Source: Cryobacterium arcticum (GTDB lineage Bacteria; Actinomycetota; Actinomycetes; Actinomycetales; Microbacteriaceae). Taken from it: 64,000 nt of DNA. Of this stretch, positions 35,553 to 38,125 are shown one piece after another. Under the pieces are notes generated by a model, which was not told the DNA's origin, did no database searches, and worked only from the letters and a program-made list of their open reading frames with translations. Each line of letters starts with the position of its first letter. Position 1 is the stretch's first letter. Position numbers and translations under genes: made by a program. The DNA is taken from the NCBI RefSeq assembly GCF_001679725.1, contig NZ_CP016282.1, forward strand, positions 1,054,001-1,118,000, in the 5' to 3' direction.

Positions 35553-35569
35553 TTCTTGCTGGACACCAA

Positions 35570-35602
35570 CGCAGCGTAGCCGGTCACTTCGGCTGCGCTG
35601 CG
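35570..35602 (+). terminator. Rho-independent terminator of ychF
   Basis: CGCAGCGTAGCCG and CGGCTGCGCTGCG form a 13-bp stem with one mismatch and a GTCACTT loop. TTCTTCTTT follows, a good U-run. Confidence 0.85.
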
Positions 35603-35611
35603 TTCTTCTTT

Positions 35612-35884
35612 AACCGCACCACCGAGAGTCCGTGTCCGAGTCGCCACAGCCAGGCACGTGACCTTGAGAAACGATGTCTGTGGTTCGTGGCACGGTTTCC
35701 GCATGGAACGCACATCGATCACCGAACAGGCCGAGCGGATCCTTCACGATGTCGCCTCGACGTAGCTCGTGGCTATCATGGAGAGCTTGAACAATCACAT
35801 GCCGACGGCAGTCATGCATGTCTCAGGTGCACTTCATCCGGCTAGGGGGATGCGGCGGACCTACACGAAAATCGGATCACACAC
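35612..35884. other. Intergenic region before the peptidase-membrane-HTH operon
   Basis: No gene can be supported. A 20-codon open frame at 35703-35765 may be a remnant or chance. The segment is visibly richer in A and T than the flanking chromosome and probably holds the promoter of the next operon. A TATCAT hexamer at 35773-35778 is the clearest -10-like string; no ribosome site stands out before the GTG at 35885. Confidence 0.5.
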
Positions 35885-36379
35885 GTGGACTACGCATCCA
35901 GGCAACACCGCGCTCAACAACTTGTCGAGGCGATAGACCTTCCACGCCCCCTGAATTCAGAACTCCTTCACCACCACATGGAGCGGCTCCGTGAGAAGAA
36001 GATTCTCATCATGCAAGCGCCTCAGGGAATGATCGATAGAGGAATTTGTGCCCTCTGGCTCGAGGTGTCGGGTGAAGGATTCGAGCGGATCCACTACGCA
36101 CCAACAGACTCGGCCGTGCACCGGCAGCAGTTCGTGAATCATGAATTCGGACACATGATCCTCAACCACAAGAAGATGATCATGCCGGCGGACCGGGTCG
36201 CACTTCTCGCCCCCCTCATCCCCATGAACGCCATCGTCTCCGCGCTGTCCAGAAGCAGCTTCACCGATGAAGAAGAAGCACTCGCGGAAGCTATCGGGGA
36301 CGAGCTTGCGACGATCCTTCGCAAGGACGCAGCCCTGAGCAGGCGCGAAGCCGAGACCGGATTCGGGCAGATCCTCTGA
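35885..36379 (+). CDS. ImmA/IrrE-like metallopeptidase
   Basis: A 164-residue single-domain protein with a zinc-binding His86-Glu-Phe-Gly-His90 motif in Asn-His-Glu-Phe-Gly-His-Met-Ile-Leu-Asn-His. A helix-rich C-terminal part carries Glu-Glu-Glu-Ala-Leu-Ala-Glu-Ala-Ile-Gly-Asp-Glu, which places a third ligand (Glu) on a downstream helix as in ImmA/IrrE peptidases. Those enzymes cleave a partner repressor to induce a mobile element or stress regulon. No DNA-binding domain is fused to it. The stop overlaps the membrane gene start (TGATG), and an HTH gene closes the operon, so a regulator is available as a substrate. The target is inferred. Confidence 0.8.
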   Translation: MDYASRQHRAQQLVEAIDLPRPLNSELLHHHMERLREKKILIMQAPQGMIDRGICALWLEVSGEGFERIHYAPTDSAVHRQQFVNHEFGHMILNHKKMIMPADRVALLAPLIPMNAIVSALSRSSFTDEEEALAEAIGDELATILRKDAALSRREAETGFGQIL

Positions 36380-37413
36380 TGTTCACACTGGTTGAATACG
36401 CGGTGTTCTCGGCCCTGTGGGGCACGACTCTGCTCCTTGTCCCCAGTGTGCTCCGCGGAAGACGACGTCTGCTTTTCTGGTTCATGCTGGCCTTCGCCAT
36501 CACAATGTCGTTGATCTCCGACGGACCGTATGCGCTCGTCGATGAACTCTTGGGTGGAGTCGGCATAACGTATTTCATCTTCCACGCGACCGCGATCATC
36601 TGTGTGGCGTTGTTCGACTCCCTCATCCAGACGGCTGTCTCAAAATCCGGGCTCACTCCGACGAGAAAGCGAATCGCCTTGTGGGGAGCGACCGGACTGA
36701 TCATTCTCCAGGCTTGCCTCTTCTTCGCCAACAACTGGGACATTGACAACGTCCAGTTCATCGGCGCCGGCGACTGGAGTCAGCTGGTCTACAGCTTCAC
36801 GACCTGGATCGCTCTGATCGTTCTGGCCATCTCGACAATCGTCGCGTGTGCGACGGACTTCAGGCGTCAGTCGGACACAACGCTCAAGATCGCGCTCGTG
36901 ATGGTCTCTGCCGGGTGCGTGCTGGTGTCGCTCTATGTCGTGATCCAAATGGGTGTAGCGATCAACCGGGCAACGGGCGGCATCGGTGTCAGCGCCACAG
37001 TCAACTTCTTGTCGGTGGGATGCACGCTCCTCGCCCCCGTTCTCCTGTCGGTCGGCCTGGGTCTCCGCCTATTGATCGGAGCTTCCCGAAACCTGAGGGA
37101 CGCAGCCAGGAGCCGGCGGCTGCTGTGGAAGGTCACGCCACTCTGGGAGCGGCTGCTTGCCGACCGGCCTGAGCTCAGCATCGAAGCGCCGATGTCACGC
37201 ATAGCACTCTGCCTTCAGGGGAACCACGCCGTGCACCTCTACCGCCGCTACGTCGAGGTTCGCGACTGTCTCCTTCTGTACCCCGTCCAATCTCTCTCAG
37301 CTCGGGAGGCCAAGCTCATCCAGAGAATCGAAGAGCATATTCGTCAGGCATCGGATGCATATCGCGGAACCACAAACGACTCGAGGACCGATGAGTACCA
37401 AAATGCCCGGTGA
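36379..37413 (+). CDS. Seven-helix membrane protein with a DUF6545-like tail (MAB_1171c type)
   Basis: The 344-residue protein has seven predicted membrane helices (roughly residues 3-25, 33-50, 57-82, 95-112, 127-148, 160-184, 195-223) and a cytoplasmic tail of about 115 residues. The tail contains Leu-Trp-Lys-Val-Thr-Pro-Leu-Trp-Glu-Arg-Leu and Tyr-Arg-Arg-Tyr-Val-Glu-Val-Arg-Asp, which I recognise as the DUF6545 pattern of actinobacterial MAB_1171c-type putative transporters. The tail probably contacts a soluble partner, most simply the peptidase made from the same mRNA. The 23-base overlap with the HTH gene shows tight coupling. It may sense a membrane or envelope signal; no ligand is known. 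Confidence 0.78.
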   Translation: MFTLVEYAVFSALWGTTLLLVPSVLRGRRRLLFWFMLAFAITMSLISDGPYALVDELLGGVGITYFIFHATAIICVALFDSLIQTAVSKSGLTPTRKRIALWGATGLIILQACLFFANNWDIDNVQFIGAGDWSQLVYSFTTWIALIVLAISTIVACATDFRRQSDTTLKIALVMVSAGCVLVSLYVVIQMGVAINRATGGIGVSATVNFLSVGCTLLAPVLLSVGLGLRLLIGASRNLRDAARSRRLLWKVTPLWERLLADRPELSIEAPMSRIALCLQGNHAVHLYRRYVEVRDCLLLYPVQSLSAREAKLIQRIEEHIRQASDAYRGTTNDSRTDEYQNAR

Positions 37414-37861
37414 AGCGGATGGGACAGCGTCCCCGCTGCCCACTCCACAAATGGAGCTTGCACGCAAGCTGAATCTGCTGCTCGACGTCGTCGTGGCCGA
37501 AGGAAACACCCCGTACACCTACCGTGAGATCGCCGCCGGTCTCAAAGCCAAGAAGGTTTCGCTTTCGCGGGCGCGATGGCAGTACATGGTCAGGGGCGAA
37601 GGCCCGCTGGTCAGTGATGCCCTGCTTCTGACTGAGATCGCGAATTTCTTCGGGATCGCACCGGAGTACCTGCTCGGGTCCGATGACGACCTGCCGGAGC
37701 GCATCGACTCTCAGCTGGAATTGGTCCGGATGATCCGGGTCAAGCGAGTCATCAACTTCGCGGCCCGAACTCTCGGGGACACATCGCCAGAAGCTCTCCG
37801 AGAGATCACGAAGCTTCTCGAGGACGGGTTGCCCGGCGGCTCAGACCAGACCGACCGGTAG
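37391..37861 (+). CDS. EspR-like helix-turn-helix regulator
   Basis: A 156-residue protein. After a short tail (1-25), an HTH domain spans about 28-90 (Tyr-Thr-Tyr-Arg-Glu-Ile-Ala-Ala-Gly-Leu...Leu-Ser-Arg-Ala-Arg-Trp-Gln), followed by Ile-Ala-Asn-Phe-Phe-Gly-Ile-Ala-Pro-Glu-Tyr-Leu-Leu. The second half is helical and likely dimerises. By eye it resembles mycobacterial EspR and SinR-like XRE proteins. The ATG at 37391 has GAGGA 3 bases upstream, inside the membrane protein gene. As the last gene of the operon it is the best candidate substrate for the peptidase and the repressor of its own promoter. Confidence 0.8.
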   Translation: MSTKMPGEADGTASPLPTPQMELARKLNLLLDVVVAEGNTPYTYREIAAGLKAKKVSLSRARWQYMVRGEGPLVSDALLLTEIANFFGIAPEYLLGSDDDLPERIDSQLELVRMIRVKRVINFAARTLGDTSPEALREITKLLEDGLPGGSDQTDR

Positions 37862-38047
37862 CACGTTGCACGGCACCGCGGCGGGTGCGCAGCCGAGCGG
37901 GTGGCCCCCGGGTGGTGTTTTCCGCCCCGAAAGAGGTAGGCTTAGACATGTCCAACGGGGGACACGGACAGAGGTGCACCGGGACCAGGGGACAGGATTC
38001 TGGGGGGCCGGGGCGCTTTTTTCACGGTTTTGAGATGGATTCGTCCA

Positions 38048-38125
38048 TCCAAAAACGTCCCGCCGCGTGGGGGGACGCGGCGGGACGCAACGTGACCCAG
38101 GCGTGGGGGGACGCCTCAGGTCGCG
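38048..38125 (-). ncRNA. 6C small RNA
   Basis: On the minus strand two hairpins each display six cytosines in the loop: first AGGCGT-CCCCCC-ACGCCT (38099-38116), then a 13-bp stem CGTCCCGCCGCGT with loop CCCCCC (38056-38087). The second hairpin is followed by GTTTTTGG, a terminator tail. Two C6-loop hairpins in this order define the actinobacterial 6C RNA family (RF01066), a conserved trans-acting regulatory RNA. Ends are estimated from the -10 and the T-run. The rest of the 37862-38317 gap holds no gene I can support. Confidence 0.92.

Follow-up and report, generated by a model that had tools for sequence, protein, structure and literature searches.

The window analysed here is a stretch of 64,000 nt of the Cryobacterium arcticum genome (NZ_CP016282.1; G000:C1:1054001-1118000), and this account concerns three genes within it that lie between positions 35885 and 37861 on the forward strand of this genome, all transcribed in the same direction and each overlapping the next in the open reading frame (ORF) calls. 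We refer to them as P, M, and H, and to the set as the trio. P (35885-36379, +; GTG start) encodes a small HEFGH metallopeptidase of 164 aa that resembles the ImmA/IrrE (M78) family and has its motif at 36140-36154; M (36379-37413, +) encodes a 344-aa MAB_1171c-like protein with seven transmembrane (TM) segments and a cytoplasmic DUF6545 tail; and H (37391-37861, +; ATG start) encodes a 156-aa EspR-like helix-turn-helix (HTH) protein that is a probable repressor. The overlap is a single base between P and M (TGATG) and 23 bases between M and H, and the GC content is 59.7% over the trio versus 67.8% and 69.2% in the two flanks. The gene identities, the operon structure, and the raised A/T content had all been described in a first-pass annotation of this DNA, and all of them are confirmed. 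A terminator-like hairpin 3' of ychF (35568-35604, +) separates the trio from this upstream gene, and the trio therefore probably has its own promoter. The closest named relatives are Cryobacterium proteins.

The metal site of P is intact. Residues H86, E87, H90, E131, and E135 are invariant in all 46 rows of a homology-selected alignment (A5, picked from 88 relatives), and it is from this alignment only that we claim conservation of the site. P has both sequence hallmarks of M78 peptidases, the HExxH motif and a downstream glutamate, with E131 and E135 each a candidate for the third ligand, and in a structure model of P (pLDDT 77) HEFGH falls within one helix and both glutamates within a later one. 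The invariant residues bear out the earlier identification of P as ImmA/IrrE-like, although its match to Pfam Peptidase_M78 (PF06114) scores 15.7 bits, under the cut-off of 22. A PDB sequence search with P gave no match, and two plasmid relatives of P carry the NCBI name ImmA/IrrE family.

M has seven hydrophobic segments, and an AlphaFold2 model (mean pLDDT 82) contains seven membrane helices, of which TM7 is predicted to run on for about 55 residues (206-260) as a long helix into a cytoplasmic helical tail. The PF20182 (DUF6545) match lies on this cytoplasmic side (residues 243-302; 37105-37284, +; E 7.6e-7; 30.1 bits, above the curated cut-off of 24.4), and the MAB_1171c model (NCBIfam NF042915) aligns with residues 9-299 at 92.3 bits, under its cut-off of 100. 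In 66 aligned sequences the mean number of Lys+Arg residues is 3.8, 3.8, 4.0, and 5.5 in the successive inside loops and 0, 0.5, 1.5, and 0.4 in the outside loops, and this positive-inside pattern makes an outside N-terminus and an inside tail probable. A PDB sequence search with M found no real match, just one at chance level (E 0.41); two plasmid records carry a distant match to the window's M. H aligns over residues 23-132 with the solved EspR of Mycobacterium tuberculosis (E 2.6e-8) and is the sole recognised DNA-binding protein of the trio; a Pfam scan of H recognised no HTH domain.

The three genes travel together. In the genus, 57 genomes were searched; H is found in 45 of them, P in 45, and M in 46. 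Two organizations predominate: 41 P-M-H clusters (type A, as in the window) and 23 H-P-M clusters in 21 genomes (type B), with four P-M pairs and a few remnants. Every multi-gene cluster of trio genes in the genus is confined to a single strand. The first-pass annotation had proposed a check for co-occurrence of the three families, and this was run and supports their association, with the trio in the same order in 41 of the 57 genomes and linkage extending well outside the genus. DUF6545 is present in 18 of 396 genomes of a phylum sample and in 98 of 121 sampled genomes of genus g9 (taken as Streptomyces), with as many as 11 matches in one genome. A wider sample comprised 60 loci, of which two (L039 and L147) were dropped because M was not clearly called, and the gene order around the remaining 58 is H-P-M (26), P-M (13), M-H-P (7), P-M with H on the opposite strand (7), or some other order (5). 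P was picked in this sample by its HExxH motif, hence the use of 105 control genes for comparison; a same-strand HExxH ORF adjoins M at 55 of the 58 loci versus none of the controls. In the other direction, at least 25 of 28 EspR-like genes in 15 g9 genomes have a DUF6545 match within 2.5 kb. Protein distance matrices also correlate over 36 loci (Mantel r 0.90 for P-M, 0.79 for P-H, and 0.80 for M-H), and part of this correlation reflects common descent of the cassette. Because many of the loci are related, the counts lack independence: L032, L148-L150, and L152, for instance, occupy one genomic site, a conserved chromosomal position downstream of a gene of ~830 aa in several g9 genomes, with P-M and no detected H.

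Elsewhere in the order, 14 regions with an H match from 13 genomes of other genera include P-M-H (L206 and L208), H-P-M (L209, L210, L211, and L213), and P-M-H with a 6-TM protein between M and H (L214, L217, and L218, the M of L218 being assigned by position only), together with less regular arrangements and lone H genes (L205 and L207). The lone H genes of L205, L207, and L208, from another family of the order, closely resemble the window's H (E about 1e-73 to 1e-77), and the one in L208 sits 1.5 kb from a complete trio.

A palindrome, TTAGACATGTCTAA, is common to the upstream regions of Cryobacterium trio operons. Allowing at most one mismatch there are 39 sites in 36 of the 57 genomes, as compared to four for the reversed control pattern in all 57; 26 of the sites are 44-159 bp 5' of a P match, nine are 46-109 bp 3' of an H match, and four (one in G422 and three in G446) are elsewhere. 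The three in G446 (C1:841064, 893373, and 945671) are copies of TTAGGCATGTCTAA about 52 kb apart and away from the trio. None of the 14 genomes lacking a type-A P has such a site (Fisher p 4e-8 for the association of site with type-A P, kinship ignored). A closer reading covered 27 type-A loci. The 25 that contain P and M together each have a site of two mismatches or fewer, and six of these 25 have paired sites 36 bp apart; the other two (L089 and L097), which are without M, have no TTAGACATGTCTAA site within three mismatches. In the window, the predicted operator is TTAGACATGTCCAA at 37942-37955 (no strand assigned), which departs from the palindrome by one mismatch and lies 3' of H. A degenerate operator-like sequence, TCATGCATGTCTCA (35812-35825, no strand assigned; four mismatches), lies 5' of P within a conserved block; in the window and in seven of eight close relatives (three to four mismatches in the relatives) this degenerate copy is 70-74 bp before P, close to the operator position seen in other clades; L083 has no degenerate upstream site within four mismatches. 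The window's 4.35-Mb genome contains one TTAGACATGTCTAA site at one mismatch or fewer, beside the trio, with one further site at two mismatches and seven at three, and the total of nine is fewer than the 22 found for the reversed control pattern. A type-A-like operator TTAGACATGTCCAA is also present at L213:841-854, about 1.1 kb past the M end of an H-P-M operon in another genus of the same family. A leaderless short peptide starting within the operator was considered and rejected, as the frame ends after five codons in L081.

Type-B operons have a predicted operator of their own, TTGAGCATGCTCAA, frequently accompanied by further copies at intervals of 22 bp. The 57 genomes contain 14 perfect copies, every one of them 123-149 bp 5' of a type-B H; of 56 copies with one mismatch, 24 are upstream of a type-B H and 32 are not, the latter being fewer than the 41 matches to a control pattern. 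In all nine H proteins read out of the 14 with a perfect TTGAGCATGCTCAA, the sequence LSRSRWTY is present in the presumed recognition helix, whose position is taken from EspR. Type-B H proteins with LSRARWSY are accompanied by sites that resemble CTAGGCATGTCCAG and differ from the type-A palindrome by four mismatches, at three closely related loci (three of the seven LSRARW-type loci were read). Twelve loci from other genera include two with a perfect CTGGACATGTCCAG 5' of P, two in which a perfect TTGAGCATGCTCAA precedes the called start of H or coincides with it, one (L212) with CGGAACATGTTCCG just within the called P, and two (L209 and L216) with one-mismatch forms; no CATG palindrome of the trio kind was found at five of the 12. 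We name H as the probable binder of these palindromes on three grounds: no other protein of the set is recognised as DNA-binding, the site follows the trio from place to place, and the site varies between H subfamilies. The first-pass annotation had made its proposed circuit depend on binding of the HTH protein at the operon promoter, and a predicted operator is indeed present at the trio operon, with strong comparative evidence in both type A and type B, and binding there is a prediction.

Many of the operons also carry enzyme genes. Within Cryobacterium three operons were tested (type-B operons L101 and L104, and the P-M pair L117), and each of them extends to an alpha/beta-hydrolase gene whose product, of ~395 aa, has one or two membrane segments. 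Among 36 wider operon neighbours, the families that recur are short-chain dehydrogenases/reductases (SDR; four), P450s (three), TetR-type regulators (three), HAD hydrolases (three), PAP2 (three, those viewed singly being just under the Pfam cut-off), amidases (two), amidohydrolases (two), and FAD oxidoreductases (two). These are 36 of 38 neighbours, the two left out being long genes upstream of P-M (L149:1212-3677 and L032:7967-10525). The control set was 36 genes out of 163 distant ones, and among the 25 of its 39 families listed, HTH_67 and Mrr_cat are the only two that recur (two occurrences each). Plasmid annotations, examined for six of 34 matching records, give a similar picture: a Streptomyces sp. 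769 plasmid has genes annotated as HTH, ImmA/IrrE, MAB_1171c, and P450; a plasmid of Streptomyces sp. NBC_01278 has HTH, 'toxin', MAB_1171c, and P450; and pFRL6 has two hypothetical genes, MAB_1171c, and an amidase, adjoining a divergent DUF6545-ImmA/IrrE pair. The P-M pair of L117, which has no EspR-like H, lies beside a histidine kinase and a response-regulator-like gene, and the P-M genes of L118-L120, also without an EspR-like H, lie beside ABC-transporter-like genes (the L118 permease, which was tested, is of the FtsX type). In L223, a Streptomyces clavuligerus plasmid, P is annotated 'ParH-like protein' and follows the leader gene of a ribosomally synthesized and post-translationally modified peptide (RiPP), and in L219 lantibiotic genes are located about 2 kb before the trio.

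In the window the neighbours outside the operon are an F420H2-dependent quinone-reductase-like gene and a photolyase-related gene. The photolyase-related gene is common to eight of nine species of the window clade and to none of 12 other loci examined, and because the trio sits beside this same gene in eight of the nine species it appears to be inherited rather than mobile in this clade. A fixed enzyme partner for the window trio was considered and rejected; the flanking genes vary between Cryobacterium clades. Adjoining the operator is a 6C-like, C-rich, two-hairpin RNA (38051-38125, -), whose membership of the module is uncertain; it has CCCCCC loops and a T-rich tail, a fold z-score of -4.6, and a score of 32.2 bits, below the Rfam cut-off of 47. 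It occurs beside the trio in nine of the 57 genomes, all of the window clade, and the main 6C match (G000:C1:590204-590278; 42 bits, also under the cut-off) is separate from this copy; with the usual match elsewhere and the trio-side copy restricted to one clade, we do not count the RNA among the general components of the module. About 95 noncoding bases with G-runs (37925-38020, +), located between the operator and the RNA, are conserved in eight of the nine species, and most of this block is missing in L086.

The gene set and its linkage, the conserved palindromes at the operon, the intact metal site, and the predicted topology of M come directly from these computational comparisons, and with them in hand we propose that P-M-H is a self-contained, self-regulating, membrane-gated derepression switch of the ImmA/IrrE type, a reading to which we give slightly less than an even chance. 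H would repress its own operon through the palindromic operators beside it, which in the window clade are the degenerate site 5' of P and the strong site 3' of H; M would sense an envelope signal or a hydrophobic small molecule and control P; and active P would cleave H, in the manner of ImmA acting on ImmR and PprI on DdrO, with induction of the operon. The output would be M and P, to which other lineages add an alpha/beta-hydrolase, a PAP2-like phosphatase, a P450, an FAD oxidoreductase, an amidase, or an SDR, and the operon enzyme would probably make or remove the sensed molecule. Operators at both ends of the operon could also allow EspR-like looping, which is speculation. P, tied to M at almost all loci, is probably the protein that removes H, given the analogy of ImmA-ImmR, in which derepression is reported to occur by proteolysis (PMC2701414), and of PprI-DdrO and CapP-CapH, for which proteolysis is also described (PMC10904395). 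M is the likely gate, since M and not H is the constant partner of P and since M is exposed on both membrane faces. Judged by the sites, H is most likely a local autorepressor and not a regulator of distant genes, as 35 of the 39 flank the operon and the window's genome has just one with no more than one mismatch; the expected output is the operon itself, since no other strong target was found. The first-pass annotation had viewed the trio as a possible sensor for genes elsewhere, and the position of that single site, adjoining the operon, argues otherwise; a regulon elsewhere was rejected by the scan of this genome with up to three mismatches.

Several observations weigh against the proposed switch or against parts of it. 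In addition to the low M78 score of P, the linkage is broken in some genomes of the genus: G417 has P and H together with M 590 kb away, G416 has a P-H remnant, G408 has a lone type-A H, and internal stops in M (G402 and G425) and a split P (G428) indicate decaying copies. No EspR-like H was detected with P-M at 13 of the 58 wider loci, and the target of P may therefore be M or another protein. A sigma-70-type promoter was looked for at the trio and none was found, and the window operon itself contains no enzyme gene. Eight of 43 genomes with a type-A P have no TTAGACATGTCTAA site of one mismatch or fewer near P, and in the window clade the strong site is 3' of H with only the degenerate copy upstream, an arrangement that does not place the repressed promoter. 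On recheck, the argument from the recognition helix for H as the palindrome binder is also weakened. L103 and L107 encode an H with LSRSRW(TY) and yet have no perfect TTGAGCATGCTCAA site, and in L206 and L208 H has LSRSRWAY (LSRSRW as in type B) but the site is CTGGACATGTCCAG, so the Ala/Ser change in the helix alone does not set the operator, and a Ser-Arg-Ala/Ser-Arg-Trp key was rejected. A post hoc correlate is the residue after the Trp, with Gln or Ala accompanying GACATGTC cores and Thr accompanying GAGCATGCTC; L103, L107, L209, L089, and L097 do not fit it or are without a site.

Other readings assign the parts differently. M could be the output, as a transporter or membrane effector, with P and H forming a cytosolic switch like ImmA-ImmR; we consider this somewhat unlikely. 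The NCBIfam label of the M family is putative transporter, the predicted operator sits at an operon that contains M, and an M. abscessus mutant in MAB_1171c, a gene listed as an integral membrane transporter, forms about half the biofilm and has lower minimum inhibitory concentrations for two of three drugs (PMC8707978). However, P-M without a detected H is common, as noted above, and P-H lacking M occurs in two cases within the genus, one of them a remnant; the enzymes vary between operons and M does not; P and M co-vary most closely; and the modelled helix 206-260, extending TM7 into the cytoplasm, would suit signal transfer. Alternatively, M may hold or activate P with the M tail or some other protein as the substrate, and H may be a plain autoregulator that is never cleaved. 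P-M pairs without an EspR-like H, beside kinase and response-regulator genes (L117) or ABC-transporter genes (L118-L120), fit this arrangement, which we nonetheless judge improbable given the precedents in which the HTH partner is the substrate of an ImmA/IrrE-type peptidase (PMC2701414, PMC10904395).

The trio could also be a toxin-antitoxin or anti-phage module with P as the toxin, and a defence regulon was among the suggestions of the first-pass annotation. One plasmid copy of P is named 'toxin' by NCBI, COG2856-Xre pairs were once proposed to be toxin-antitoxin-like (PMC2701414), and H has a weak match to capH (E 5e-4). Against this, no toxin or nuclease domain is recognised in P, M, or H; PADLOC matches are not enriched in the operons, with three families among the 36 operon neighbours versus 11 among the 36 control genes; M, represented by those of the window and L141, has no match in 50,697 phage records; and the position beside the same photolyase-related gene indicates inheritance in the window clade. 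We reject a defence or toxin-antitoxin module on the PADLOC comparison and the phage-record search, and think such a role very unlikely. Slighter still is the prospect that H is a nucleoid-type global regulator like EspR, tuned by the P-M pair. The H sequence is EspR-like, and EspR binds hundreds of genomic sites (PMC3315491), but the window's genome has a single site with one mismatch or fewer in 4.35 Mb and nine within three mismatches against 22 for the control, and H is absent from 12 of the 57 genomes of the genus.

If the membrane-gated switch is correct, the trio joins an ImmA/IrrE-type protease to a dedicated seven-helix membrane protein, and suggests a widespread route from membrane to DNA. 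The ImmA/IrrE-type switches treated in PMC2701414 and PMC10904395 act within the cell, where they respond to DNA damage or govern a conjugative element. We tentatively suggest, as a possibility with more doubt attached than the switch itself, that the trio represents a new membrane-signalling class, in which 7-TM receptors each have their own soluble M78-type protease and mostly their own EspR-type repressor, forming orthogonal self-resetting switches that each sense a different lipid-like or small molecule, often with an enzyme in the operon. In the window clade the switch may also have a link to the 6C-like small RNA next to the strong operator, a second RNA of this kind that is specific to the clade. 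The predicted operators make a vague hypothesis directly testable, and the enzyme travelling with each operon is a route to its signal. A literature search, with most subscription papers and bioRxiv outside its coverage, returned nothing on the trio, DUF6545, or the NCBI family name, for MAB_1171c only a single paper on other matters, and for ParH a listed paper on plasmid segregation. The families and the HTH-peptidase pairing are already known; nothing in the literature searched dealt with the operators or with the dedicated 7-TM partner and how widely it occurs.

Comparison with known systems shows both what is shared and what differs. As in an HTH-ImmA/IrrE module, an HTH gene adjoins the peptidase gene, and cleavage by P is proposed by analogy with such modules. 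ImmR-ImmA of ICEBs1 and other COG2856-Xre pairs likewise encode a small HExxH peptidase together with an HTH repressor (PMC2701414), whereas the trio has a 7-TM protein as the constant peptidase partner, an HTH protein of the EspR type, and, in the window clade, the form of a chromosomal cassette. PprI/IrrE-DdrO of Deinococcus also pairs an M78-type peptidase with a repressor, which is cleaved in Deinococcus (PMC10904395), but PprI has HTH and GAF-like domains and is activated by single-stranded DNA, and P is a single 164-aa protein encoded beside a membrane protein. CapH-CapP of CBASS is again a protease with an HTH repressor (PMC10904395), and H has its weak capH match, but no CBASS protein is recognised in the trio and the operon neighbours of its relatives show no defence enrichment. 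The tail of M accounts for its DUF6545 match, and the MAB_1171c model aligns with M over most of the model's length, but these family names (NF042915 and PF20182) cover the membrane protein alone, and the part of the PMC8707978 text that was seen contains no transport assay. The similarity of H to EspR covers H residues 23-132, and EspR represses its own gene, perhaps by a loop bridging two sites; the EspR motif, however, is TTTGC[TC][GA] at hundreds of sites (PMC3315491), and the predicted site of H is a CATG-centred 14-bp palindrome at its own operon. In BlaR1/MecR1-BlaI/MecI a membrane sensor and the zinc protease by which a repressor is removed form one protein, whereas in the trio the putative sensor and the protease are encoded by two genes.

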